64,000 bases of DNA from Apostichopus japonicus (taxonomy: Eukaryota > Echinodermata > Holothuroidea > Aspidochirotida > Stichopodidae), in contig NC_092564.1 in NCBI RefSeq assembly GCF_037975245.1, positions 13,230,484-13,294,483 of the forward strand, read 5' to 3'. The notes beneath the pieces were generated by a model, which was not told where the DNA came from, searched no databases, and worked only from the letters and a program-made list of their open reading frames with translations. Positions 7,896 through 56,900 of the stretch are shown piece by piece (position 1 is the first letter of the stretch; every line of letters begins with the position of its first letter). Made by a program: the position numbers and the translations under genes.

Positions 7896-10800
7896 TTAAT
7901 GTGAGAACAGCATATATGCTTTAAGACAGTCCAAACTGAAATGCTTTTTGCAAAGCATTTTTTTTTTTTTGACTCACCTTGTTTAACCAGACAGAGATGC
8001 AGGTAGAGTGAAAGAAGTGACAACATGATAACTCGGTAACAGTCTCTTGTAACTCATACTCCACATGGCATATGGCACATTTAAATTCCTTCTCTGCTAA
8101 GACCAAAACAAGAGGAGAGAGGGAGAAGAAAAGAAGCAAATATTATCTAAGTGTCATCAAAACATTTTACAAAGAAATATCTTTGCAAAAATACTTCCAA
8201 AAAGTCTCTCTTCACTTATGTTCACAGCAGGCATTAATAGTAACCATGGCATTCTAAGAGTACAAAACACAATGTCAACTTTTTCAAGACAGACCTACAG
8301 GCAATTTACCATCATTGAAATGTTTGAGCTACAAATGGATCAAAAAGCAGCAAAAGTTAAATGCATTCAACATGAACTTACGATACTAGTTGACTTCAGT
8401 AAACCATTCTTCAAGCACTAACATAGCTTTTATTAAGAACAAAATTTCAGCTGCCTGTTTTGGAATCCCTAGGTAATGTTGCATTTAAAGTCTCAGTACT
8501 TGTTTGCCAAATTTAAACTTCGACCTTTCCAGCTCACTGCGCTAAAAGCTCAGTGAAAATGTGACACCCTTCTATGCAGTTTTCATATCATATACTCATT
8601 ATTTTTATTGCGTTATCTGTCATTAAAAATTTTGATCTGAATAAAATTCGCCAGAATTATTAACGAGTCCGTATTTTCTACAAACTTCAATCAAAAGTTG
8701 CAAGCCCCGCTCAACAGATCATGAGCCAATCAAATCTCTCTGTTTTGTTTACGACCGTTAAGCCTAGGAATACTTTCACTTTCGTGGCTAGTCTGTCTTA
8801 GGTCCCTTCTCTTGAATAGTATCTTTCTCTCAGTCTTACTGATGAAGCTTGCAAAATTCCTTCCATTGCAACGAATAAACAGGTGTTTTCAGATGTTTCC
8901 TCCGTGGAATTATAAAAAGTGGACGATATGAGTATAGAACTGCTTTAAAATCTTGATCGGGCCGCATGTGTAGACTATTTTGTTTACATTTGTGTAATGA
9001 ACATGGGCGCCGGTCGCAGTGATTTACGGTAAATCGTTCGTGCCATCAGGGCAACAGAAAATAGATTTCTTTCTTTCCATTGCAACAGCTTTTCTCCATT
9101 AAACCCACCCTGGTCAGAGTGCATTTAGAATAAGAAACATTGAATCTACTTTGGAAGTTTGTTTTCCGAAATTCATCAGCAAACAGGTATTGAGACTTTA
9201 GAGTCAATAAATCCAACAAACAAGAGCACTAGCTTCTACAATCCTGAAAAGACTGCTCCTGTTCACTAATACATTATTTCAAAGAAATATGCATCACCTA
9301 AATCAGTCCTTTGAGATCTGAGATTTTCAAATATTCCAGTAAACCCAAAGGAAAAAGAAGCAAATTAAATACAAATATTGAAAATACCTATTTAACTATT
9401 AAAACTTTTTTGAGCTTTTAAACTCATAACAATAATTGATACAACACTCAAATATTGAACATATGACCTGGAGAGAATGAACAGACAGCTCATCTGTCAC
9501 TGCAACTGCACTCAGTTATTAATTTTCAAAAGACAGAAAAACTGTTAACAAACTTCTTTTCTACTGCAAAAGGCCTGTCTAGGCGAAATATGTACAAGTT
9601 AAAAGGGCCTGACATTTGGATCCTAGCAGGATCTTCTTCAGAGGCTAACTGACACAAAGTAAAACTAAAAACACATTAAGAGACAGAAATGGACAGAGAG
9701 ACTAGACTGGTAGGTCTAACTTTATTCGGTAAATCAGTTTGAATTCAGTACCTTTCATCTCAGCTGTTATTTTTCTCTTCGTTAGGTTCTCTATCAACTC
9801 CTCTGTTGCGGGTGGTGGTCTACTTCCTACCAAATCTCCAGTATCTGAGGTTAACCCTGCATCATGCATCTGCTGCGCAAGAAGGCTAAGAACAATGTTC
9901 TGCAAGGAATGCAAAAGTGAGACAAATATAGCTTCAAATTTGACAAAACATACTAAAAAAACATGACCACTAGAGAATACATATTTGGAAAGTGTAGGGA
10001 AAACATACATTGTCCTGTTTTGCATGAGGGCATGTTAAAGTAAAACTGAGGCATTGTTTTTGAAGTAAAACTGAGGCATTGTTTTCTTAAGTTGAAATAT
10101 GATCACCAAATAACAAACTGCAAACTGTGGACTGCAAAGTGAAAAAGTTCTTGGGTGCTTGTATTTCATATCCAGATCTACTTAACTATGATTACAGAGA
10201 TCTGCTTAGGCATTTATTATAACAATCCCTGTTTGTTTAAAAAGTAAGTAAAAAAATAAATGCAACACACATTGATTGGGAAAGCTGGTTTGACATTACC
10301 ACTAAATATGTCAAAAAGGACATGACGGAAAACTCCTGAAAAGTCTATTAGGTCTGACATCATTAGTACCACATAAACGTATATGTAAGAAGCATGGGGC
10401 TACTACTGTGGCTCTGTATAACCAGTTTGCAGTTTGTTACAACCACATCCATGAGACGGGTGGGATATCATCTATAAGAAGAATGAGACATTTTCTAAAA
10501 AGCAAAGATGACATTATTATTACAATATATGTACATGTTAAAAGCACGTTACAATTCCTGACAAAGCCTTTGGTTTGACATAACTATTACCACATATATA
10601 TATAACTGAATTATGCAAGGGCAGGAAATGCCATTTGTGATACTTAATTCATATAGATGGTTGAAATGACCTCTATCGCCATCCATAATATTTAAATTAT
10701 CAATACATAGATCCATGTGTTCATTTACTGAGCAATCCAAAACTCCTTTCAAAGTTTTCACAGAGAGACTCTAATGAGACTGGGAGAGGTGACAAACGCA

Positions 10801-13429
10801 TTAATGATTTTGGAGGGAAGTTTTGTTCTTTTAACAGACTCAGTTTAGAAAGTATCATGCAAAATAGAAAGCTTCATTTGCCAATTTGCTCTGCCCATTA
10901 CAGTACCTCTATGAGAAGCTGAACAAACTCATCACCAAGTTCCTGTCTGGCTGAGGTTAGCATCTGAATCATGATGGCTGGGGGTAGTTCGAAGAGGAGC
11001 GGTGCAAACAGAGGGCACGCCATGAGAGCCAGATGGTTGGTTACGTTCTCTCCGTCACGTCTGCTTGGAAGGAAGAAAACAAAAGGAATACTATACAACC
11101 TGTAATGGAGGTTACATTGAAGTGGCTGATCTGCATGCAGGATGCATGTTATTATGTTAATATCCATTCAGCCCTGGTAGAAGGCATCTAATAAGAGTAA
11201 CTATAACAGATTGGTGGATGGGTGGGGTGGGGTGGGGGTGAGGGTGGGGGACACATTCTACTACTAATGGACACAGCTGCTACCTTGATCTGAATGTCTC
11301 CTGGGTAGGAGGAGGCGGAGTTTCCAATGATCTGAAGCTGGGGGTGGGGTGGGGGTGGGGGACACATTCTTTTACTAATGGACACAGCTGCTACCTTGAT
11401 CTGAATGTCTCCTGGGTAGGAGAAGGAGGCGGAGTTTCCGATGATCTGAAGCTGGGGGTGGGGTGGGGGTGGGTTGGGGTGGGTTGGGGTGGGGGACACA
11501 TTCTTTTACTAATGGACAAAGCTGCTACCTTGATCTGAATGTCTCCTGGGTAGGAGAAGGAGGCGGAGTTTCCGATGATCGAGTTGCACCCAACAAGCTA
11601 TCTCTAGTTGGTGACTGATGGGACAAAGCCTCCCCATGACGTAACGGTGTTAACGATGGTAGTCTACTGCTGGCAGTGCTGTAAATCGATTGGCGAGGCG
11701 AGTGCGATGACTGCGGCTGTAGCAAGGTTCCATCGGACGCTGTGTTCACCAATCTTTGTCTAACCCTTTCTCTATCCCTCTGAATCTGACGATTCCTAAA
11801 CGCGGTGTAATCGTCTCTATTTGTCTGTCGTGACAGCAAACGAGCAGGCGGTTCCTGCACCAGCGGAGAGATGCTTCTCATGCCACGCAGTTCACGACCG
11901 CCAAACAAATTTGGCTCGTTTTCGTCAGATATAGGGGATGAGTTCAAATCCTGACCAACTCTGTTTGAAAGACTTGAAAACGGTGAAACATTTCGGCTAG
12001 CACGCACGACCCGTGGTCTCTCTGAAAAGGAACTAGATGCATTTGTCCTGATCTCAGGGCTACCTAATCTGAATAATTCATAGCTCAAGAGATCATCATC
12101 ATGTTCGTCAGAAGAAGACTCCGAATCCACTTCATCCCTTGTTCCTAATGATACAGTTCTCTCAGTTGTTAATCGTTCTAAATTGTCTCTTTGAAACCTG
12201 CCATATGCATTCTGTTCAGCAGGTGTAATTCTGTTTTGAAGTCTACTAAAGTTAAGGTTCCTCTGCCTATCTACAACTCTATCTCCATCCAAAGCTGGAT
12301 AAGTTCTGGATAGGGGTGAACTCGAATCCAGAGAAATCCTATCCCTCGGTGAAAAAGTTTCCAATGAATTAGAATTGGACATTGGACTGGTCAAGCCAGA
12401 GGCCAAAGAATGACCGTCTGATTGCTGCTCTTGTGTTGCCATTAATAATGGTGATGAGTTCATCACTCCACCCTCTGATGCCTGACTCCCAACTTGATTA
12501 CTTCTCAAGCTACGTACGGAACTGTTGGGGATTCTTTCGTCCATGTCACTTCGGTTTATCAGTTCACTTGAAAGTGGATTGCAATTTTCCCTGAAGATAT
12601 GTAAACTTCCTACTGGACTGGAACTCTCTGTTTGCTTTTCTGAATGTTTTACAATTCTTGAATCATTACTGGTTCCCTGAGAATTAATATTTCCATCTGG
12701 AGGCAGAGAGCCATGACTTTCTCCACCAACAGACTGTACTGTTTTACTATCTTTCACACGAACTCCCACTGCCGGTGGTCTTGTCGTCGACGATTTGTCA
12801 TGTGATTGACCACGTGAGAAGTTCGACGAAGGTTCATTACCACCGTCCGAGCTTTGCCGTTTCACAGGTAAACTGTTCGGTGCAGTCTCACATACCTCCC
12901 GAGTAGCTTTCTGTCCTATTTTGTTCTCCCTCGTCGATTTCTGTTGCCGAAAGTGCTTCCGAGTAATTTTGTTTAAATTCCCATGATTTGGCGTATTTCT
13001 GTTTGGGGCATCCCATACTCTGCCTTGGTCTTTCCCCAGGTCAGTAAAACCTGAGGTGTTTACCTTGGGGACGTGTTGATCTCTTTCTTTCTTACGACTG
13101 ACGTCGCTGGTAACTCTTCTCTTTACGTGTCGTTTCTGTTTTGCCGATGATTCATCGTCTTTATTCTCTACTTCGTGACTCTCCTTCTTCTCCTTTCTTT
13201 TCGGAATAGCCCCAGCATGGTGAAGCGACTGCGCTGACGGTTTGGTGTTCTGTGCGACGACTAGTCCAGGTTTCCGCCATCCTCTCTGAAATGGTATAGG
13301 CTCACCAGATGTTGACATTGAATGTGTCCTTAGGTGCGGTGTCCTGCCACTAGTTCCAACTTGAAGTTCCTTCCCCCGATCTGTAGGACCCTCCCGTCTT
13401 GAGTTGGTGAAGTTCGGTGATGGCTTCAT
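7824..13429 (-). CDS. Praja-like RING-H2 E3 ubiquitin ligase
   Basis: Likely an E3 ubiquitin ligase. Coding exons on the minus strand are 13429-11529, 11063-10907, 9899-9752, 8093-7978 and a proposed last exon 7895-7824, all phase-compatible (797 aa without the optional mini-exons). Residues 1-634 are low-complexity, Ser/Arg/Asn/Pro-rich and probably disordered. A PPPATEELIENL segment then leads into the RING-H2: CAIC (741-744), SCCHFFHSTC, ISVWLNK and finally CKLCRR (779-784). This order matches Praja1/2, where PPASKESID precedes the RING. The start is the first ATG after an in-frame TGA at about 13518. A splice acceptor at 13521/13522 suggests a 5' UTR exon upstream, perhaps near 16.2 kb. 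AATAAA signals lie at about 7684-7693. Odd points: the last exon has TTAA instead of an AG acceptor, the usual CPxCR proline is missing, and the large exon's donor sits in a tandem repeat. The family assignment rests on the RING and its lead-in; the N-terminal part resembles nothing I recognise. Confidence 0.72.
9600..9650 (-). ncRNA. Possible degenerate hammerhead-type motif
   Basis: On the minus strand the sequence reads CTGAAGA, then a palindromic stem GATCC-TGCTA-GGATC, then CAAA and TGTC. This resembles the CUGANGA / stem II / GAAA layout of hammerhead ribozymes carried by Penelope-like elements and similar repeats. The G12 position is C here, so an active ribozyme is unlikely. Whether stems I and III can form is not clear. 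Confidence 0.3.
11284..11337 (-). other. Candidate mini-exon (54 nt), copy 3 of exon tail
   Basis: Third copy of the 3' end of the Praja-like gene's large exon. It is preceded by a C-rich tract ending CAG and followed by AAG|GTAGCAGC. It has lost 3 nt relative to copy 2, so the frame is kept; it would encode SFRSLETPPPPTQETFRS. Whether it is spliced in is unknown. Confidence 0.4.
11395..11451 (-). other. Candidate mini-exon (57 nt), copy 2 of exon tail
   Basis: Second copy of the last part of the large exon, bounded by CCCCCAG and AAG|GTAGCAGC. The flanking introns would be 77 nt and 57 nt, very short. It would add a 19-residue in-frame repeat containing SSETPPPSPTQETFRS, the same peptide as the exon end. 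Confidence 0.45.
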
Positions 13430-13520
13430 ATTAATACGTGTACAGTACACACTTTTCTTCAAACCAGAGGAACTCTTGTGAGATGAAAATGACTTTGTTC
13501 TACCTCTTCCATGTTTTCAG

Positions 13521-14250
13521 TCTAGAAAGGAAGAAAAATAGTCTCAGTTTCAATGTGAAGCGCCTTGTTGGCTAATGTCAGTAACAATATTTTATTAAGT
13601 ACCAGAATCTATGTGCCCAATTTTTAATCAATTTTAATGAAGGCAACATTGATTTTGCCTTAACAGGTTCATGTACAGTTTTGCATTAGACAATTAGTGT
13701 AAACTACATCGTGACATCAAGTTACAACATGTACAACTAAAACATGAATTTAAGATTTAGTGAAGGTTCATGAAAAAATCTGACAACAAAGTTTCTTTTC
13801 TTTCTTTCATAGTTGGGGCTGTTTTGTGTACTGTCTTTGTTAATCTTACATTACTTTTTCCAATCCCCCCCCCCCCCCCACCCTACTTTATTACCTCCGT
13901 TTTGCATTAGTGGCTCTCAGCTGCTCCTGCTTCTTTGGCAACTTAGCAAGTACCATTTAATGTTAACTCATTATACAAGTTAGCAAGTGACTTCGATTTA
14001 TACCATAAACAGAGTAAAATAAATGTCACATGTCTAGTTCAGAAGCTGAAATGATTTCTCTCTCTCGATACAAATAATTATTAAAATTTGAATTTTGATG
14101 AAACTTTCACATCATTAGGTCAGCAATCTCTAACAATTTAATGCATGTATGAGTAACAGAGTGCACTTCCTCTAGTTATCAAACTATGCAACGACCAAAA
14201 CATTGGTCAAGTTAGACAGGTAGCTTTGTTAATAATCTTAAACATATTAG
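13521..14250. other. Non-coding stretch upstream of the Praja-like coding region
   Basis: No exon recognised. Contains a C-run at about 13866-13880. It probably lies in the first intron if the 5' UTR exon is near 16.2 kb. Confidence 0.4.
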
Positions 14251-15210
14251 TCAACTTTATATACGGAACAGGAAGCCAGTTTAAAAGTTTGAAATCCCGA
14301 GGAAGTATAGTATCACATATTTTCAGACTTGAAGTAAACCTGATCAAGTTATTTTGAAATGTTTAAAAATTTTTACATTTCTTACTGAGACTACTTTACC
14401 AAACACAGCACGCATAATCAATATACTGTAACACTGTATAAGGGCACTGGCAAGAAGTTTCTTTGCCAAAAGACTGAGAAACGGCTCTTTTCTGTAAAGA
14501 AATTTGAGCCGGCCATTTATCCTCTTCATAAGACTCACCACGTGTTTTCACCGGTAAGGAAGGCATGAAGTTCGGCACCTAGATACTTAATATTATTAGA
14601 ATTCTTGATAAGAACACCATTACATATTACACTAAGGAGATTCGCATTCTGTATCATACTAGGTCTACCAAACAAAATAGTTTGTCTTCCTGAGATGCAG
14701 GGTGAACAAATTGTCAGAAAACCAACTACAAAGGGATGTTAATTCTCTACTAAAAATAGTTTCAATGGTTTTAAAATCCCTGCCAGAAACCAATAGTGCT
14801 GTGTCATCAGTATAAAGTAGCACTCTGCTGGAAACAACATTATGTCACTGACATACAAGGAGAATAATAATGGGCCAATAATAGACCCCTGGGAACACCA
14901 TTAACAAGTTTAGCTTGACTGGACATGTGACCATTAATGTCAATCATCTGCTGCCTACCAGTTTAATTGGAAGTGAACCAATTAATACAAGAGACATGGC
15001 TGCACCCATATACCACACACCTTTAGGCTTCAGTTTAGCCAAAAGGAAGTTATGGTTTACAATGTCAAATGCCTTTTAAGATCAAGTAACACCATCCCAA
15101 CAAGATTGCCTTTAGCTGTCATTGACCTAATAAAATTGGTAAGATATATTATAGTTGTATCAGTAGAATAAACGTCTGAACCGCATTGAAAATCATTCAG
15201 TGTCTTATAC
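14250..15210 (-). mobile_element. Fossil non-LTR retrotransposon (reverse transcriptase)
   Basis: Read on the minus strand from 15210 downward, broken frames give STDTTIIYLTNFI, LLDLKKAFDIVNHN, GSIIGPLLFSLYVSDI, LYTDDTALLVSG and then the RT-distal stretch INGRLKFLYRKEPFL with YIDYACCVW. These are the finger, palm and thumb motifs of a Jockey/CR1/RTE-type reverse transcriptase in the correct order. YTDD replaces YADD, and several frameshifts are needed, so it is dead. It sits upstream of the Praja-like coding exons. It differs in sequence from the better-preserved LINE at 39.3-41.4 kb. Confidence 0.8.
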
Positions 15211-27098: not shown

Positions 27099-27735
27099 CT
27101 AAGCTAAACTAAGCTAGGCTAAGCTAAGCTAAGCTAAGCTAAACGAAACGAAACGAAACGAAACGAAACGAAACGAAACTAAACTAAACTAAACTAAACT
27201 AAACTAAACTAAACTAAACTAAACTAAACTAAACTAAACTAAACTAAACTAAACTAAACTAAACTAAACTAAACTAAACTAAATTATACTAAACTAAACT
27301 AAACTAAACTAAACTAAACTGAACTAAACTAAACTAAACTAAACTAAACTAAACTAAACTAAACTAAACTAAACTAAACTAAACTAAACTAAACTAAACT
27401 AAACTAAACTAAACTAAACTAAACTAAACTAAACTAAACTAAACTAAACTAAACTAAACTAAACTAAACTAAACTAAACTAAACTAAACTAAACTAAACT
27501 AAACTAAACTAAACTAAACTAAACTAAACTAAACTAAACTAAACTAAACTAAACTAAACTAAACTAAACTAAACTAAACTAAACTAAACTAAACTAAACT
27601 AAACTAAACTAAACTAAACTAAACTAAACTAAACTAAACTAAACTAAACTAAACTAAACTAAACTAAACTAAACTAAACTAAACTAAACTAAACTAAACT
27701 AAACTAAACTAAACCAAAACAAACTAAACTGAACT
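27099..27735. repeat. Pentanucleotide array (AAGCT)n-(AAACG)7-(AAACT)~105
   Basis: Starts with several AAGCT units, then exactly seven AAACG units (27141-27175), then about 105 AAACT units with rare variants (near 27283, 27321 and 27711-27731). The ordered change of unit type suggests successive expansions from a single motif. It lies about 200 bp upstream of the plus ACAD start codon. Confidence 0.97.
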
Positions 27736-27932
27736 AAAAGCAGACGTCCCTGATCATGTGGCTAACATGGCGTTCCAGGGTTGTAGTAGTTGTACGAAAA
27801 GTAAACAGAGTTAGCAGTCATTGCGTAATTTGGCTAGGGCCTAAGCGATCGTACTGTACATGCAAGCAGTGTATAATTGGTTGTCTATAACTGCCAAACC
27901 CCTCACACTGAAGAACGAACTAAGAACCGAAA

Positions 27933-30900
27933 ATGTTGGCTTCCAGAGTTTCTCAGAGCTACCGATTTACAGTTCAGAATGTTTTTAAAAGATTTCAATC
28001 CGCACAGGCTAGCTTAGCAACGAGTTCAATTGAGTCGATGAGAGAAGAAAGCATATTCACCGAAGAACACATTGCTCTGAGACAGTCTCTTCGCAAGGTA
28101 GCCTAATGTGGTTGTGTAACATTACTTAGGATACGGCACAACCTTGTTTTTAGGAGCTCGTAAAAATTCCAGTTTCAGTGCTCCGAATCGAAAACATAAT
28201 GACCATGTATCAGTGCCATTCGAAAATATATGTTCCGATTGGCTGTCCATTCAACGTGTTTTCAAATTTCTTTTGTGTGTTTTGTACCCTGACATTGGTA
28301 AAAGATTTAGGCCTAGCGTTAGGGCCCGGGCCTAGTATTACTATTAGCCATTGTCATTGGCCTAAATTAGCAATATAGCCTGAACGTCTGACAATACCTC
28401 AATAGGGCGACCTAACGATTGTAGACGGTAGCTTCTTGATGCTGTGAGCTCAAATATTCTTAAGGAAAATAGTGTCGATCTCACACTGTCACAGAAACTG
28501 TTCTGTGTTTTAGTTCTCTCCAGTCAACTAGGGCTAACTTCTAACTAAGGCCTATTGCTATGTGGTTCCATTAAGACTAGTAGAGTTTGGTTTCATTAGA
28601 TTCTGGCACAATGAAAGATTTAGTAATCAGGATATCCCAAATTTATGTTACCAGGTATCAAAGTTGCTACCAGCTTCAAAGACTTTCTTTTCTTTTGCAG
28701 TTAGCCTATTTATTTCATTGTGAAAGTGACTTTCAGAGTTCCAAGGAACTGAAAATATTCAATTTTGCACAGTGTCAAACTGGGTACCTTTTATTGCATT
28801 TGTAGATAATTGAAAATGAGATCAACCCACATGTTGAGCAATGGGAAAATGAGAAGATGTTTCCAGCGCACAGAGTGATGAAAACACTCGGCTCCAATGG
28901 ATTCCTTGGAGTAAATAAACCAGTTGGTAAGAATAATGCCAATTAATAAAACTAGTATTAAGCTGAATCAGTTCATAGTATGTTCACAGTGACACTTTTT
29001 AGAGTGGTTTAAGTCTCCAGGGTTGGTACATCATAGCTATATTGCCAGTTCCCAATTATGCTATATTAGAGCCTCAACGTGCATTTCATCTCAATGGTCT
29101 GAAAATCTTCTTTGGTACTATTGTGTAGTATATATATACTCACACTTTCATGACAATGAACATATTTGGTGGGGGGGGGGGGGCTCATTCTCATAGATCA
29201 TTCTTAAGTGAAAATCCAAATAATGCCATATTGTGTCCTGTGTTTGTTTACAAATGTTCCCATTTGAAAATATTAATTGATCGTATGCATGAATTTATGC
29301 TTTGAGGTTGCAGTACTACTACTTCTACTATACACTGTAGAATTGTATGGCAGAGACTCAAGGATTCCTTTGAATATACTGTATACACAAAGTGTTAGTA
29401 ACGTTTGACACAGGATATGGATCTGTATGTTAGTAATGATGTGCAGGTTCTTTGTAGGGACTTTTGAAGGTCTCAAGGCTGGATGTGTTCCAAATGGTAG
29501 AAAGTAGGATTAAACGTAACGTTTAGGCAAACTAGGAAGAATTTGTAACTTGTTTACGTCGCGGCGTCAATCGATTTGGGAATACGAAATTGCAATAGTG
29601 ACATACACCCTTGCTTCATATACTTGTGTAACAAAGTGTTTGTGAAGAAAGTATGGCTCTTTTTCCGAAAAGATCGTTTCTAAAAGGAGCATTTAATGGT
29701 GTATGTCTTTCTTTTCCATAACATGGAATGTTGCAAATAACTGAAATAGGACACATTGCCAATGTCTGCAAAATTCTAAACACGAAAACTTAAAAATCAC
29801 AGCTTGGATGAATTTTTCATCCTTGGTATGTTGATCCAACTTAGAGATAGAGATTTTGAGAAGCTATTTGGTTTAAGTGAAGCCATATGGACAAATACTA
29901 TCAAACAGCTTCTTGTCTTCTAACCTTCATGAATTTTCTTTCAGATGATACTGTATCTTCATAAAGTTCAATGGGCATTGCAGTCTCAACCAACATCTGA
30001 AAATAAACATTTTGCATTTGGAAAGACTTCCCAAGTCCTCAAATTAGGGCATAAGATCAGTCTTGAATAGTTCAAATTAGACTTTTGTTTTTGTTTTTTT
30101 GTACCCTGTACAACAGCACGGTCTATAATATTTGTCTCTACAAGCTCATTGTACAGCAGTTGAACACTGTCTTGAAAGTGTTCAGTTATTTTATTTCCTG
30201 ATCTTCTTTTCTATAGAGTATGGGGGACTTGGATTAGATTTTAGTTACAGCATTGCAGTAGCAGAAGAACTAGGAAACATAAACTGTGGTGGTATACCCA
30301 TGGCTATAGGAGTGCAAACAGATATGGCTACACCAGCTCTGGCTAGGTAAGCACCCACAGTAGTGATAAAATGGAGTTATCTGTTTTCAGTTCACTGTTT
30401 GAGTAAACATTACGGTGGAAGATTTGTGTTTATCTTATTTTAAATCTTTTACTCTTAGCAGCAGCAAGTGCTCCACCCAGTGGGGCTGAGCAGTAACTAG
30501 ATGGGAGGGGGAACTGGTAAAGAAGTATTAGTGTATGAGATGAGATTAAGGCTGTTTTCTGTACCAAGAAATTTCTTTAGTGTATATGATGTAGCAAACA
30601 TTGACAAGAGTAGGAAGATTTTATCCGGTGACATGTGCACAGGGCTGGAAAACCTTCCGAACCAGGTTCGCGGGAGAAAATCCTGGCTGGAGAAAATAAA
30701 TCGGGAAGAAAATAGAGGAAAAAAAAGGGGACGAAAAATATTTAAAAACCATGAAGGAAAAATAAATTTCAGAAGAAAAGTTTCAGAAACAAAAGAGAAA
30801 TGTTCAGAGAGTGTGCTCGCAATTTTAGTCACAATGTAGCAGGTAATGATGTGTCCCCAACCCACTCACATGGGCAATGTCAATGGCTAGTTTCGCACAC

Positions 30901-33900
30901 TTCAGGGTATATGGGTCACACGGACACCCACGGCCCAGCGCGGGAAGATTGCTGTAATAAATCAGCCTCACGGGAAATGTTTTGAACAATATTGCTATTC
31001 CACATTTTTTGATATTTATATGGTATGTTAGTTAGTAAACGTTTTCTTTCGTATGAATTTGACTTCAGTTCAGGTGCGGGATTCCCTTCAACAGACTCAG
31101 TAATCCTGCAAAGAAAACATTTGTCTGCTGGAAGTCCCTGCATCGTTTTCTTGCATTCGCGATGAGTTTACTGATCTGCCGTTTTTTAATTCCTTTTCTT
31201 ATAGATTTGGATCTGATGAATTAAGAACGCAGTTCTTAGTTCCAACAATCGCCGGAGATTTCGTTGCTTGCCTGGGTGTTAGTGAACCGGGTGCTGGATC
31301 TGATGTAGCTAGTAAGTCATGCATGCCACCTATAATTATGTAATCCTTCCAGCGAGTTAGAAAATCCAGGTTAGCTGTTCCTCTTTTTGTCATTTAGTCG
31401 GGAGACAAAATTTTCAATGAAGGGATATGAGGAACAGTGGTATTCTTTGGTAGGAAGGGTAATCAAGTAGGTTTGTTGGTGTTAAAGGTTTCAGTGTTAC
31501 TGCTTTAAATGGCAAATTAAGTGTTGATAGATTGTGGACCCTCTAGAAACATTGTTTGGCCCTTTAAGCATCTGAGGCTCCTCAATTAAAAGTAGCTGGA
31601 CTAGTTAGTGTCACACACAGACCATTAGCTCAATTCCCAATGTGCAAAACATAACTCAAATCAGAAAACAATAACCATAATTTTATCACCAATATTAGTT
31701 CAAATCGGTATCATCTAACATAGAGATAACATCTTTTAATTCTAAAGTATTCTAAGGCCTGCTTTAATAGCCATTTGACATAAACTTCTACAGTGTATTG
31801 TATTAACAAAGTGTGCAATATCAGGGAAATTTGTCATTTTCCAAGGTTTTGGCAGCAAATCTTTCAAGATATTGCATATGGTGAAGGAGGAATGTAAACC
31901 ATCTATAGGGCAAAATTAGAAAGGTTATAAGTTATCATTTAATACCCACGTAAAGGAGCATGGCAGGATGTTAGACGATATTATTTTTATCTTATTTTAA
32001 GACATCACTACTACTGCCGTCAAAGATGGTGATGACTTTGTGATCAATGGAGCCAAAATGTGGACTACATCAGGTATGCAGGCTGACTGGATGTGTCTGC
32101 TAGCAAACACTGGAGGAGAGAACGCCCACTCCAACAAATCACTTATCTGTCTACCCTTGGATACGAAAGGTTTGTCAATTATTCAATCTGGGATTAAGTT
32201 TGACCTTTGCATTAAGTAGTTGGTCAGGTACTATACTTCAGGACAGAGGAGCATCATCTACAAACATATAGTGTGATTTGTGGAGCATTATCTACAAACA
32301 TATAGTGTGATTTGTGGAGCATCTTCTACAAACATATAGTGTGATTTGGAGCATCATCTACAAACATATAGTGTGATTTGTGGAGCAGCTTCTACAAACA
32401 TATAGTGAGATTTGTGGAGCATTATGTACAAACATAAAGTGTGATTTGGAACATCATCTATAAACACATAGTGTAATTTGGAGCATCATCTACAAAGATA
32501 TAGTGTGATTTGTGGAGCATCTTCTACAAAGATATAGTGCGATTTGGAACATCATCTATAAACACATAGTGTAATTTGGAACATCATCTATAAATGCATA
32601 GTGTGATTTGGAGCATCATCTACAAACATATAGTGTGATTTGGAGCATCATCTACAAACATATAGTGTGATTTGGAGCATCATCTACAAACATATAGTGT
32701 GATTTGGAGCATCATCTACAAACATATAGTGTAATTTGGAGCATCATCTACAAACATATAGTGTGATTTGTGGAGCATTATCTACAAACATAAAGTGTGA
32801 TTTGCGTGATACTCTCTATCAGTCATGAAGTCCTTATTCATATGGTCTTTCTCTGCTTTTATTTATTATTAATATACATATATATATTTATATATATATA
32901 TAAATATATCTGTGATAGTATATATATATGTCAATCTGTTTATATGTAAATCTGTACCACTTGGCGACTGTTCATAGGGGTTAAATGCGGTCAAGCATTA
33001 TTTTACTCAAATTGCTCAGAGTCGTGGTATGAACCACAATCATAGTATGTGTGTTCACAGCTTGTACTGTACAAGCTTGTACTGTACTCACAAGCTTGTA
33101 CTGTACAAGCTGATGGACATAATATGTTTTTGCCATGAACAGTGGTCGAAACTTAAAAATATCAACAAACTGTAGCGTGAGAACTATATGAAACATATTT
33201 GGGTTTATGATATACATAATTCACATAAATTAGTATGAGAAATATGCTCATAAGTCAGCAACATATGATGAAATAGCATGACAAACTTGACCATAAGTCA
33301 ATGTTATGTTCTTGTATTGGCAAGAAAGGATCACTGATATGCTTTCTTGTTCTGAGGTTGTAGGCTGTATTTCTGTACTTATTTCTCCAAGGTGTCCATC
33401 GAGCTAAGAAGATAGAAAAGATTGGTATGCACTCATCAGACACAGCTCAAATCTTCCTGGAAGATGTCCGAATCCCTCAAAGGTATCTCATCGGAGACGA
33501 GGGTCAGGGATTTACCTACCAGATGCTTCAGTTCCAAGAAGAAAGGTTATTTGCAGCTGCTGGGAGTGAGTTGTTTGTTTCATAAACATTTTACGGTCAA
33601 CGTCCGGACATAAACATGAATGGATCAGTAGAAAGTTTCAAATACCACACCTTGAATATCCCTTCATTCATCTACAATGAATATTCATATGAAACCACTA
33701 TGGAAGCTTGCCTCATTTGCATATCGTCGATCATTCCTCCAATCATAGCAAAGATAGTTATAGAGAGTCATTGAACAACTTGCCTTGTTGAACTTGTAAG
33801 AAGATTTGAAAATGTTTCTGAAAGCAATGAATATCATTGAAAAAATTGTTTAAAAAACACTGGAAAAATTGTGAATAGTGTGTTGTCATTTTTAAAAGCC

Positions 33901-39329: not shown

Positions 39330-41449
39330 GGATATAATAATAATAATAAATGAGACTTATATAGCGCCAAATCAGTAAACAAAAGTTACTGCTCAAAGCG
39401 CTTTACAAAGAAAGTAAATTAATTTACAAAAGAACAAGTGAAAAAATGGGTCTTAAGTAGACTTTTGAAAGTAGAAAGTTTATAGCATGTTCGAATGTGA
39501 TCTGGTAACTTGTTCCAGAGATAAGACCCAGAGTATTGGAAGCTTCTGTAACCATAGTTCTTCAATCGTGGTTTTGGAACAGTTAAAAACAGTTTGTTGG
39601 AGGAACGAAGTGTGCGAGTTGGAGTATATGGCAAGAGAAGTTGTGACAGGTACACAGGCCGTTCAAGATGATGAGCACAGAAGGTGAGAAGAAGTATTTT
39701 ATACTGGATTCTGTAGCTGATAGGTAGCCAATGAAGTTCCTTCAGAAGTGGGGTGGTGCGGCACTTTCTTCCTTTCCTTTTCACAATACGGGCAGCGGTG
39801 TTTTGGATCTTTTGGAGTTTCTTGATGGTCGAATCAGGAAGGCCAAATAAAAGTGAATTAAGAAAATCAAGCTTTGATGTCACAAACGCATGGACCAGTA
39901 TCTCGCAAGTCTTATTATCGAGGTAATTCCTCATCAAACTGATTTTCCTAAGTTGCCAATTTGCAGAACGACAGAGATTAGTAACGTGATTTTCAAGTGA
40001 CATGGTCTGGTCAAAATATGCACCAAGGTTTCTAACAGTTGAGGAGATATTAATAGAGTCTTTACCAACAGTAAGTGGTGGAAAATTAGGTGTAACTTCA
40101 GAGAAACGTGATCGAAAAACAATAAACTCTGTTTTATCACAGTTTAGTTTCAACTGATTAGTTGTAAGCCAAGTGTTTACAGCACTTATACAGGTTTCCA
40201 TTTTATGAAAAGCATTTGGCACATCATCCTTATCGAAAGCAAGAAGTAATTGAGTATCATCCGCATAATGATGGAAATGAACACCATGGTGCCGAATAAT
40301 ATCACTCAACTCCGCAAGATATAAAGAAAAAAGAACAGGTCCAAGTACAGAGCCCTGTGGAACACCAGTAACTAATGGACGAGGAGACGAGAGAACATCT
40401 TCAATTTTCACCTGTTGATAACGCTCAGTAATATAAGAATTGAACCAGGATAGAACAGTACCACCTAATCGATACTTTGACTGCAGTCTTTCTAACAAAA
40501 TGGAATGATTAACTGTATCAAAAGCTGTTGATAAGTCTAAAAGAACTAAAAGGACAAAGCAGTCTTCATCAAGCTTGGATGTAATAAAATTATGAACTGC
40601 ATTGAGGGCAGTTTCCGTACTGTGACCAGACTTATAAGCTGACTGGTATGGTTCGAGAAGATTCTCCTGTGTAAGATAATCCATTAAGCGAGATAAAACT
40701 GTCTTTTCCAAAACCTTTGAAACGAAACTCAAGTTCGAAATAGGGCGATAATTTTTTAAACAGTTTCTATCTAAGCTGGTCTTTTTAAGTACAGGAGTCA
40801 CATGAGCAACCTTAAAGGAATCGGGTACGGTTCCTGTTGACATAGAAGTATTGACAATATTCGTGATGAGAAGAATGAGTTCTGCTGAACAACCTTTAGC
40901 TAACCATGTTGGCAGCGGATCAAGCATACACGATTTTGATGGAGAGTTTTTGATAATTTTAAGTATTTCATCTTCAGTAGCTTCAGAGAAACTGTCGAAC
41001 GAAGATGCAGGCGATGGCTCAGTCAAACAATTTGCAGAAAGATGAAGGCCTTGACGATTTAACATAGTACAAAGTTCCAAGATCTTGGAAAAATAAAGGG
41101 AGAATCTCTCAGATAACTCTGTATGGCAGGAATAGTTCGGCAGGATGGCACACTTCTGTTTATTTGAAAGAAAATCAACAGTCTTGAAAAGATCTTTAGG
41201 AGATGATGTATCCGCAATAATAGTGGCGTAATAATTTCTCCTTGCAATACAAATTTTGTTCCGCACAACTTTACAATGTTCCTTAAAAAGTTCTCTATGA
41301 ACAGATAAACCTGTTTTGCGCCACTGACGCTCGTGCTGTCTCCTAACTTTCTTAGCTTGGACAATATCATGACTAAACCAAGGTTCAATATTCTTGTCAG
41401 GTTTGACATGCAAAATATGCAGCAGCTGTTTGCACTGAGTATTCAATGT
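39330..41449 (-). mobile_element. 5'-truncated CR1/L2-like LINE with ATT tail
   Basis: A non-LTR retrotransposon copy on the minus strand. After the ORF stop the 3' UTR carries GCGCTTTGAGCAGTAAC and GGCGCTATATAAGTC and ends in (ATT)n at about 39330-39350, a common ending of CR1/L2-clade elements. The endonuclease domain is absent: the frame stops at TAA just upstream of 41446 and resemblance ends there, so it is a typical 5' truncation. Confidence 0.9.
39419..41446 (-). pseudogene. LINE reverse transcriptase, partial
   Basis: A 675-codon open frame with no stops. In order it holds a linker (EPWFSHDIVQAKK), the RT fingers (LKNYRPISNLSF), LLDLSTAFDTVNHS, GVPQGSVLGPVLF, and the catalytic HYADDTQL (YADD at 394-397). 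The thumb/C-terminal part (LHWLPISYRIQYK, SRSFQYSGSYLW-like) matches Jockey/CR1/L2-group elements. The upstream endonuclease is missing and the frame begins without an ATG, so the copy cannot move on its own. Full conservation of the frame suggests recent insertion. It lies 1.3 kb beyond the ACAD gene and is not part of it. Confidence 0.92.
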
Positions 41450-45090: not shown

Positions 45091-45094
45091 ATAT

Positions 45095-45345
45095 TATAGT
45101 AAATTTGATGCTGCATATTCATGTTCAACATGACCTTTGCTCCTATTATAGTCAAACTGATGCTGCATATTCATGGCCAACATGACCCTATGCTCCTTCT
45201 ATTATAGTCAAACTGATGCTGCATATTCATGGCACCATGACCTTTGCTCCTATTATAGTCAAACTGATGCTGCATATTCATGGCACCATGACCTTTGCTT
45301 CTATTATAGTCAAACTGATGCTGCATATTCATGGCAACATGACCT
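45095..45345. repeat. 51-bp tandem repeat, about 4.5 units
   Basis: The unit ATTATAGTCAAACTGATGCT then GCATATTCATGGCACCATGA and CCTTTGCTCCT repeats at a 51-bp period. Because 51 is divisible by three, repetitive open frames appear on both strands; they are not genes. Confidence 0.9.
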
Positions 45346-45750
45346 TGACACACTACGCAGTAAATCAACAACAAACCATCGCAGATATCTCTAAATCCTT
45401 CTGTAAATCTTGGAGATCTTAGTTCAAGAGTACACTGTTAGAACCTGACATCTCGGATGTCAAAAGGTTGGTAAGGAAACAACAGACGGCTTCCGATAAA
45501 CCAATGGTACTAGCAACGTCAACTTCAACACGCACACACTTTCTTTACTATTGAATCTTCACTCAAGGACTTAATAAGAGTCAAGAGTACAATCCCAGTA
45601 CCAATCAAGCACTGGATAATAACATGTATTTAGCTGGCTGAACTATCTATGTTGAGCGTTCATAAATAAGCCACGATGTCATCCTTCTGATGCGAGACTA
45701 CTGTGGTCCCCTCTTCAGCGGTTTCCCGGCGTGGTAGGGATAAATAGCGG

Positions 45751-48700
45751 TCAGGTCTTGGCTGCTTTCTTCTGTTTCTTACGCCGATCCATCATGGCGT
45801 TCTCAATCTCGGTTGAATAGGTCTCCCGGATTATCTTGAAGGCCTTCTTAGTGGCATATGGGATGCTTGTCACAGGGTCAATGTACTTTGCAGGCATCCT
45901 TGTAACAGGGCAATACAGTTTAGTTGGAGGTCTACCCGACTTCTTGGGGAAAATCACAGGGTACAGTTTTTCGTCACTTAACGTTATGAAATTTCGACTG
46001 CACTTCTTCTTTGAAACAGGCTTTTCCTCAGTTGTTCTATAAGATTGTGAGAATGAAAACAAACTTTTTGCAAGGATTAAAATAAAGAAAACAAAACAAA
46101 AGAATAAGAAGAACACTTTACACTTCTGCACAGGGTTCAGCAGCAGTACAGATTAAAGAACTATTTATTACATCAGAACTGCTAAAGATAAGGTATTTCA
46201 CTACCTTGACTTTTACATATTGAAAAATTAAGAGCACATCACAGAGCTACATCATGGACCCTGCTGCTGGTGATTTTCAATGACAATAATTACATATACA
46301 TTTAATTGATTGATGCAACTTTATTATATGCCTAAAGGGGTTAATCACTTAATACATACATGGAAGTATAAACATAAATTTTGATCAACAAATAAACAGA
46401 TACGAAGAGAGTAAATGTAGCTCATTCAAGAGAAAGCGAAAATAGAAAAATGAAAACTGTAGTACAAAGCAAATTTAGACATCCAGAAACAGCATAAAAG
46501 AACAGGAAACAATAGCAACCAAGCCTGGGGTAACAGCAGTCTAAATAACTTGAAAGAATGAATTTAAGGCAAAATTTTAGTCTTGATATGTCATAGTCCA
46601 TGATAAAAACAAATATTTGAGTGCTAGTAAAGTTTTTGTAGCTAGTTCGGTTTTCACCAACATATTAAGAAACTTTGTGCCTAAAGTTATCCAATAAATA
46701 AATAGGCACTTGGATTTTCAGCTTAAAATGCACTTTCACTGACCCGTAATCCAGGAATGTATATTAGTTCCCCATTGACCTTGCCCATATTAGTTGATAT
46801 TGACTGAAAATCATTCTTGATGGATTTTTTTCCCCTTTTAATTACCTATTCTTTTTTTTTTTTACAAGCTGCTAATATACTGCAAATATCCTGTATCTAG
46901 GTTAACGTATCGAAATCTCGAGGGCTGGATATTTAAATTCTTAGTAGGAATCTCCTGAGGTTGACCTGTCTTTTGCATGATCAACAAAAATGTCAATTGT
47001 AATGACATTTGACAATAAAGATGAATAATGACCTCAACATAAACATTTGAGCTTATTCCCAGTGTTCACTTTACTCAAAGGAAATTGCACGTATACTCAC
47101 CCTGTGGAGACCACATTGACAATATTATCTGCCGTGGGACTTGGTAGCTCTACTATAAGGGGCATCGTAAGGGAATGGAAACGTATCTTGGGTCCCACGT
47201 GGACTCGTTTGGGTATTTTGACTTTCTTCTTTTCGGCCTCCATCTGTTGGTACACCTCTGTTGGTATAAAGCGGACAATTTTATTCTAACTAGATTCAAA
47301 CATTTGTTATTCAACAATAGAAGTAGGTCTTTAATTCATGATATAATGAGTAAATGATGATCAAAGCATTACAAAGTAAGTAAAACTGAGTAAAACCACA
47401 GATGTGGATCCATGGTGGTTGTCGGGTGGTTGCCAACCTCAAACAAATAAAAATGCCTTGGAATGCATCATTTTCACATCTAACATTTGTTTTTCTGGAA
47501 TAGGACCCCCAGATCCCCTTTCATAGTTATCAGCTTCCACAACCCTAGGGCCAAATCCTATTCTTTTTAAAATACTAGATCAACTACTGCAAGATTAAAT
47601 ACAAAATAAGCCCATGGATTTTCACAATGCCAATGGGCTTCCTTCTTTGTAGTTTGAGAACTGTCTGGTCCTCATTATAATCTCATCCAAGATGGCCAAC
47701 TGCCTTCTGATATTACGTACAATATGAACTTAATTTTATATCACATATACCATATATATACTACATGGTGTTTCCGCTATGGATATAAGCAGAGTGACTT
47801 CTCTGAAGCTATTGAACTAGAGATACTGTAGAATCTCAATCCTATTGCTGTACTTGTACTTTGACGCATTGTGTATTATATTAGTTAAGACAGTTTATCG
47901 CAAGGTGTCGTAGGCGAAAGTTATGACAGTTATTTTTGTTAACAGGCAAAAACTGATACAAAATAACACAGAGTAACTTTGCCAAGGTCAAAATTTAGTT
48001 ACCTTTAACATCAATGGCAAACAAGAAAAAATTGGTAGGTAAAACTTGAAAATGTGCTATGATTTCACAATGGTATACTATTATATGATATTCAAGAAAC
48101 CATTTACTTTTCAAGAGTGCAATGTGGTTACCATTTGGATACGGCTCCAAGAAGTCGAGACCATCAAATTAAGACCTTACTGGCAAGTAAGGAATCTATA
48201 AGTCACTTGCAGACCAGTGGTATTACTGTCACATTACCCCAGTCTGTTATATAATTGTTCACTCAAGTGTGTTAGTAACTCCTTGGTCAGTTCTGAAGTT
48301 TTACCTGATACTAGTACTTGGGATGATTCATATCCTTTGTTTACCTCCTACTCTAGAAATGCTAGAGGGCATTTCAGAAGGTAGATACTCCAAGACTGTG
48401 TGTAGACATAGCTTCAGATGATAGATATTTGCTTTGTGCATCAATGTAAGACAAATATCTCTCAGAATTTGTCTCTGTTATGATTTTACGCTGCCAAAAA
48501 TAAGCAATTTCTGGAAACAATGCCATAAAGTAACCAGTGACAAAATTTTGAGAGAATTGCCCAAGGGCAGCAGAAATGACAAAGAAGCACAGTAACTTGA
48601 CAAATAGTCTACCTATTGAGATAAAACTGGTGGAAAGAAAACATCAGGACCAAAACAAGGATGCATCATTCATGGGAAACCTTCTCTCTTAATAGTATCC

Positions 48701-56569: not shown

Positions 56570-56900
56570 CATTTTTTTCATTACGTACGTACGTAATAAT
56601 AATACGCAAGTACGTAATAAGACTACGAACGCACGTAATAATGTCACGTACGTAAGTGATATTTATTACGTACGTACATGGTATGTATTACGTACGCACG
56701 TGATACTTACTACGTACGTACGTAATAATTATCACGTGCGTACGTGATAATATTACGTACGTACTTAGTATTATCACGTACGTACGTGCTAATTATAACG
56801 TACATATTAATTACTACTTACGTACGTAATAATTAATCACTAAGTACGTAATAATTATAACGATTGTATAGGCCTACGTACGTGGTTTTATTACGTGATA
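56570..56900. repeat. ACGT-rich palindromic block
   Basis: About 300 bp dominated by TACGTACGTAATAAT-type words in both orientations, with CACGTG, CACGTACG and TACGTACG variants. The whole block is largely self-complementary. Confidence 0.9.

Follow-up and report, generated by a model that had tools for sequence, protein, structure and literature searches.

Tandem duplication across an exon boundary of a Praja-like gene in Apostichopus japonicus and its candidate proto-exons

The Praja-like gene and its surroundings

We examined a stretch of 64,000 nucleotides of Apostichopus japonicus DNA (hereafter the window), which lies on contig C4 of the 671.6-Mb genome and carries on its minus strand a gene predicted to encode a Praja-like RING-H2 E3 ligase, an assignment made by its C-terminal RING-H2 domain. 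The first part of that domain (CAICHVEYELQETVTELSCCHFFHSTCISVWLNK; 7978..8096, minus strand, as are all exons of the gene) was identified by both profile and structure matches, with the part of the RING inside the window scoring 35.3 bits for zf-RING_2 versus a cut-off of 27.3. The last RING exon (TATCPVCRFNLQEK, then a stop; L045:7287-7331) lies ~2.65 kb outside the window and completes the domain. When this exon was included, the best PDB match of the whole RING was Praja-1 (2l0b, E 7.7e-16), its closeness to Praja being judged against solved structures only.

The large coding exon of the gene (11529..13429) has an open frame from its first in-frame ATG at 13429 to its donor and comprises 633 complete codons in an S/R-rich sequence, the frame itself being open from 13516. 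No Pfam match was found in 11531-13429, that is, in this long S/R-rich N-terminal exon. It is followed by an exon at 10907..11060 (RRDGENVTNHLALMACPLF...LLIE) and by a third at 9752..9899 (NIVLSLLAQQMHDAG...TAEMK). The preliminary description of this DNA had placed the start of the first of these two exons at 11063; position 11060 scores higher, the two positions together forming a NAGNAG acceptor. Tandem acceptors of this type are present at two exons of the gene (11060-11063 and 8093-8096, minus strand), each allowing a gain or loss of one residue.

Searches of the whole genome at the DNA level with the large exon, in which the best candidates were scored, detected no retrocopies or paralogues recording a spliced form, and whole-genome DNA searches of the same scope detected no second locus of the array described below and no copy of the large exon elsewhere. 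A protein search of the genome returned the gene's own exons and three other places with 37-40% identity, all of them at the RING end of the query. The mitochondrial COI of this genome makes sense under code 9 (AAA as asparagine), of the codes 5 and 9 compared, and is followed by frames that look by eye like nad4L and cox2, a code and gene order in keeping with an echinoderm. On contig C29 we also noted further COI pieces (G000:C29:14745-16086 and 30842-31219), which may be nuclear copies of mitochondrial DNA or belong to a mitochondrial concatemer. Within the window, a 676-aa open frame at 39419-41449 (minus strand) has by eye the look of a LINE-type reverse transcriptase, and the end of an open frame at 45751-46152 (minus strand) presumably resembles the YL1/VPS72 C-terminus. 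Tandem arrays are also found elsewhere in the window: (CTAAA)128 at 27099-27738, a 32-nt unit repeated 17 times at 32248-32804, a 51-nt unit repeated 4.9 times at 45092-45346 and a TACGTACG-rich array at 56578-56862. No RNA families were found in the window at gathering scores.

The array at the end of the large exon

A unit present in three copies, as the preliminary description had stated, comprises the final ~50 nt of the large exon, its donor AAG/GTAGCA (the slash marking the splice junction), the beginning of the intron and a C-rich tract. Tandem Repeats Finder reported the array as 11229-11473 (period 111, 94% matches) and 11341-11611 (period 134, 82% matches), and a direct search of 9500-14500 located the donor GATCAAG/GTAGCAG three times, with last exon bases at 11529, 11395 and 11284 and thus donor-to-donor spacings of 134 and 111 nt. 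The same search located CAG/CTTCAGATCAT twice, with first exon bases at 11451 and 11337. The earlier observation that a C tract and CAG precede exon-like units of 57 and 54 nt that end in the same donor was therefore borne out.

Copy 1 consists of the exon end itself (11529..11580, GATCATCGG...GATCAAG) and of its donor, intron start and C-rich tract (11452..11528), which together would make an intron of 77 nt; retention of that part leads to an immediate in-frame TAG. Copy 2 has a 57-nt exon-like stretch (11395..11451, or 51 nt when counted from a second CAG, with first base 11445) and then the same donor, intron start and C tract (11338..11394), a would-be intron of 57 nt. Copy 3 has a 54-nt exon-like stretch (11284..11337, or 48 nt from 11331), after which its donor and C tract and the unique remainder of the intron occupy 223 nt (11061..11283). 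The shorter 51- and 48-nt forms are due to the further CAG lying 6 nt downstream (CAGCTTCAG), and they are likewise in frame. Copy 3 differs from copy 2 in its exon-like stretch by one substitution, which changes S to L, and by the loss of 3 nt in a CCT/TCT run; it encodes SLETPPPPTQETF and not SSETPPPSPTQETF, the peptide given for it previously.

Several features bear on how the copies are related. The sequence CCCCCAGCTTCA precedes copies 2 and 3 and is absent from copy 1, which also lacks the junction CAGCTTCA and the CTGTG variant that copies 2 and 3 have in common. Because they share this junction and variant, one of copies 2 and 3 derives from the other. The junction filler CAGCTTCA resembles the nearby CAGCTT and TTCAGATCA and is possibly a templated insertion, a suggestion to be read in light of its being very short. 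Between copies, the exon-like stretches differ by one substitution in addition to the 3-nt loss, and the first ~40 nt of the intron copies by one substitution (copies 1 and 2) or two (copies 2 and 3), so the exon copies were not seen to be better conserved than the intron copies within the array.

Each C tract is faced on the plus strand by a G-run (G4-type) motif identified by a pattern scan (11454..11495 for copy 1, 11340..11361 for copy 2 and 11220..11250 for copy 3). Such a motif is unremarkable taken alone, since the window has 15 other clusters of this kind. The three stretches of the G-rich strand gave no indication of a hairpin compared to shuffled sequences (z -0.4 to -0.6), with a tool that we take not to model G-quadruplexes. 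On the minus strand a second frame is open for 105 codons across most of the array (11188-11505); the 111-nt spacing is a multiple of three. Lastly, the repeat peptide was considered as an FBXW7-type phosphodegron, and this was rejected as the hydrophobic residue before T-P is missing.

Splice signals and reading frames of the array

Spliced alignment of conserved proteins to the genome gave 56 introns, on which donor and acceptor weight matrices were based. These introns comprise a set of 24, 30 of another 33 (three with near-equal alternative placements were left out) and two of the Praja-like gene that lie outside the array. They include introns of paralogous ATPase and HSP90-family genes found via the VCP and HSP90 queries; one EEF2 interval with an 82-residue gap was skipped, and the lowest calibrating acceptor (-6.4) was kept, and may be misplaced.

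Against this set the array donor, at 5.91 bits, is weak but ordinary, with 11 of the 56 real donors scoring the same or lower. The C-tract acceptors at 11451 and 11337 reach 1.04 bits, a score as low as which is found in one of 56 real acceptors and which 29% of the AGs in the window equal or exceed, although a simple 56-intron matrix drawn mostly from housekeeping genes and their relatives could under-rate C-rich tracts. The acceptor at 11060, in comparison, scores 9.8 bits, a value that 40 of the 56 real acceptors do not exceed. At positions -20 to -4 the C-tract acceptors lack T altogether, which puts them outside the range of the real acceptors (minimum four, n=56), whereas their pyrimidine count is ordinary (14 of 17 versus a real median of 12, with 13 of 56 real acceptors equalling or exceeding the C tracts). 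Real introns measure 134-2488 nt (median 583, n=56); the inter-unit introns, at 77 and 57 nt, fall below this range, and the direct intron from 11529 to 11060, at 468 nt, is of ordinary length. Branch points do not separate the possible readings of the array because the best match is 7/9 both in the array and in the true intron (47 of the 56 real introns have 8-9).

A second kind of acceptor lies inside the exon copies, each of which contains CCTCCTTCTCCTACCCAG/GAG or a shortened form of it, and in copies 2 and 3 this sequence is downstream of a donor. At 11411 in copy 2 (9.65 bits) and at 11300 in copy 3 (CCTCCTCCTACCCAG/GAG, 9.75 bits) it scores as well as 11060, at a level that 39-40 of the 56 real acceptors do not exceed. 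The stretches that follow, 11395..11411 and 11284..11300, are each 17 nt long and would shift the frame if included.

At 57 and 54 nt, or 51 and 48 nt in their shorter forms, the exon-like stretches are phase-2 symmetric and free of stops, and whichever of the four combinations of skipping and including copies 2 and 3 is chosen, the frame runs on without a stop into the next exon. Enumeration of 48 splice paths from three donors and eight acceptors showed 18 to be open. Both direct paths from 11529 are open, as are 16 of the 20 that leave 11529 and use C-tract acceptors only, whereas stops or frameshifts close all 18 paths through an intra-exon acceptor, as well as the eight others whose first donor is 11395 or 11284. 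The units are consequently not harmless under every splice choice, and the earlier statement that each could be included or skipped without damage was too strong, holding for most C-tract paths and failing for the intra-exon and later-donor ones. That the 3-nt loss in copy 3 keeps the frame needs no selection to explain it, since the loss falls in a CCT/TCT run, where slippage by 3 nt would be expected. The two in-frame lengths would not be independent of one another either, given the derivation of one of copies 2 and 3 from the other, and the coincidence of frame would amount to about 1 in 3.

Summed path scores were 15.6 for the direct path, 18.2-18.4 for a single cassette entered at 11337 or 11331, and up to 32.7 for paths through the intra-exon acceptors. 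We gave these sums little weight because they are unnormalised and every added splice adds bits. The lower sum of the direct path does nonetheless weigh against asserting with confidence that splicing just passes over the array.

Origin of the array and fate of its units

The explanation that we favour, and hold to be probably correct, is that the array arose by tandem duplication across the boundary of the large exon and that its units are proto-exons which for the most part leave with the intron, the main splice running from 11529 to 11060. A direct tandem duplication spanning a splice boundary is indeed what the array contains. The first event would have been a duplication across the 3' boundary of the large exon that took in the exon end, the donor and the G-run/C-rich start of the intron, and its new junction would have put CAGCTTCA between a C tract and an exon copy. 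A second duplication, of a unit of ~111-114 nt, would then have followed, leaving the extra units intronic, as proto-exons. In the main transcript 11529 would be joined directly to 11060 with the whole array leaving as part of the 468-nt intron, and the 57/54-nt (or 51/48-nt) stretches would be included at a low level at most. Inclusion is expected to be low because the acceptors are without a T-rich tract and the inter-unit introns are very short; the poor C-tract acceptors, the short introns and the frameshifts that follow the better intra-exon acceptors likewise make the direct splice the likeliest main one. The order of the duplications, the splices used and any contribution of the G-run tract to instability are all inferred. 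Birth of exons by the array units, as had been suggested, is possible: the frames and the tandem duplication agree with it, and the 1.04-bit acceptors and the shortness of the inter-unit introns do not.

An alternative that we consider unlikely, and nevertheless take seriously, is that the units are working cassette exons whose weak C-tract acceptors are made usable by poly(C)-binding proteins (PCBP). Transcripts would then gain one or two S/P/T-rich repeats of 16-19 residues, and repeat number would alter the length of the protein. A length of 57 nt is a usable exon size, and 16 of the 20 C-tract paths are open. The motif of PCBP-enhanced exons adjoins both C-tract acceptors, with two exact matches per acceptor starting 18-44 nt before it, and is present in the last 60 nt of only one of the 56 calibrating introns. 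PCBP-like exons are present in the genome (C4:16149142-16180102; identity to human PCBP2, the query, 50-71%), and mammalian cassette exons with C-rich tracts are PCBP-enhanced (PMC4797308). Low-level or regulated inclusion is therefore a live possibility. On the other hand, the T content of these acceptors lies beyond all 56 calibrating sites, the inter-unit introns are only 77 and 57 nt, the motif is common in the window (46 matches on both strands, seven of them in the array), and the sole calibrating intron that has it belongs to the Praja-like gene itself. The same source indicates that C-rich tracts can act as acceptors with PCBPs in mammals and that its data suggest U-rich tracts to be intrinsically stronger (PMC4797308).

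The array might instead be a splicing hazard, with the intra-exon acceptors at 11411 and 11300 or the extra donors used in part, leading to frameshift or a premature stop and to loss of the RING, such that repeat number would tune the output of the gene downward. We regard this as quite unlikely, despite intra-exon acceptors that equal the true one in score and also receive the highest unnormalised path sums, and despite the closure of all 18 intra-exon-acceptor and eight later-donor paths, which is what such a hazard would entail. Exons of 17 nt are hard to recognise, and selection should act against harm of this kind. The modest branch-point matches of the array could be held against the hazard too, except that the true intron has the same best match and so they do not discriminate. 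There is a human precedent in IFI6, where a minisatellite is reported to give several donors.

A more far-reaching and distinctly doubtful proposal is that each ~111-bp unit is a complete self-copying cassette, made up of a PCBP-read C-rich acceptor, an in-frame exon and a donor, with the G-run strand unstable so that exons would be added or lost singly.

That the array is inert, its in-frame appearance being due to chance and to the triplet nature of a Pro/Ser codon run, is very improbable in our judgement; the frame agreement of about 1 in 3, the position of the 3-nt loss in a CCT/TCT run and the lack of any excess conservation seen in the exon copies would all suit such an array, which sequence alone cannot separate from the favoured boundary-crossing duplication. 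That one copy was turned into three by an error of sequencing or assembly is hardly credible, for while G-run tracts are hard to sequence and the array is known from one assembly, the copies differ in substitutions, in the 3-nt loss and in C-tract length, which argues against an assembly duplicate.

Comparison with known systems places the duplication that we favour in a wider context. In the potato RdRp gene, a short tandem duplication across an intron-exon boundary gave a new intron/exon pair whose use is supported by 106 RNA-seq reads (Ma et al. 2016, PMC4974935). The array resembles it in being a boundary-spanning tandem duplication, and in potato the parent boundary supplied most of the splice signals. 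The potato duplication copied the acceptor side and drew its new donor from a cryptic site in the exon, whereas here the donor side was duplicated, a mirror image in which the candidate acceptor comes from a C-rich intron tract and two units were added. The array also resembles PCBP (alphaCP)-enhanced cassette exons in having a C-rich tract with the exact motif directly before the acceptor (PMC4797308). Those exons are mammalian and were shown experimentally; the array described here is from an echinoderm and is characterised at the sequence level. As in the AGGT tandem genomic duplication model (PMC3443670), the duplicated segment contains AGGT. There the copied segment is exonic and need not alter the coding sequence (PMC3443670), whereas here real intron is included and the AG/GT of each copy works by score only as a donor. 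A Rogers-type AGGT-to-AGGT intron was rejected, as AG/GT scores -5.9 bits as an acceptor and each AG/GT leads into intron sequence with an in-frame TAG. Recursive splicing was rejected as well, because on reading the sequence no array splice re-creates a donor at its junction. The LPA KIV-2 coding VNTR is alike in that its unit is an exon plus intron and its copy number alters protein length; that unit is in the kb range with established exons, in contrast to the ~111-bp unit with weak acceptors here. In the IFI6 (6-16) minisatellite (Turri et al. 1995), tandem repeats at an exon end also carry repeated donors, and these give alternative donors, whereas the units here add a candidate acceptor and an in-frame stretch, with a stop resulting when an extra donor is used by itself. 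Among the literature matches listed, considered by title and abstract opening, none described a repeat unit of ~100 bp that holds an acceptor, an exon and a donor, which is weak evidence.

If the units are not spliced in, the array would be a useful negative, in which frame-perfect and donor-complete units are kept intronic by the lack of a U-rich tract. If they are spliced in, it would represent an exon-bearing tandem repeat of very small size and would show the birth of exons in progress, with one tract supplying both the instability of the DNA and the splice acceptor. Should the units prove to be self-copying cassettes, repeat mutation would alter the S/R-rich part of this E3 ligase exon by exon.
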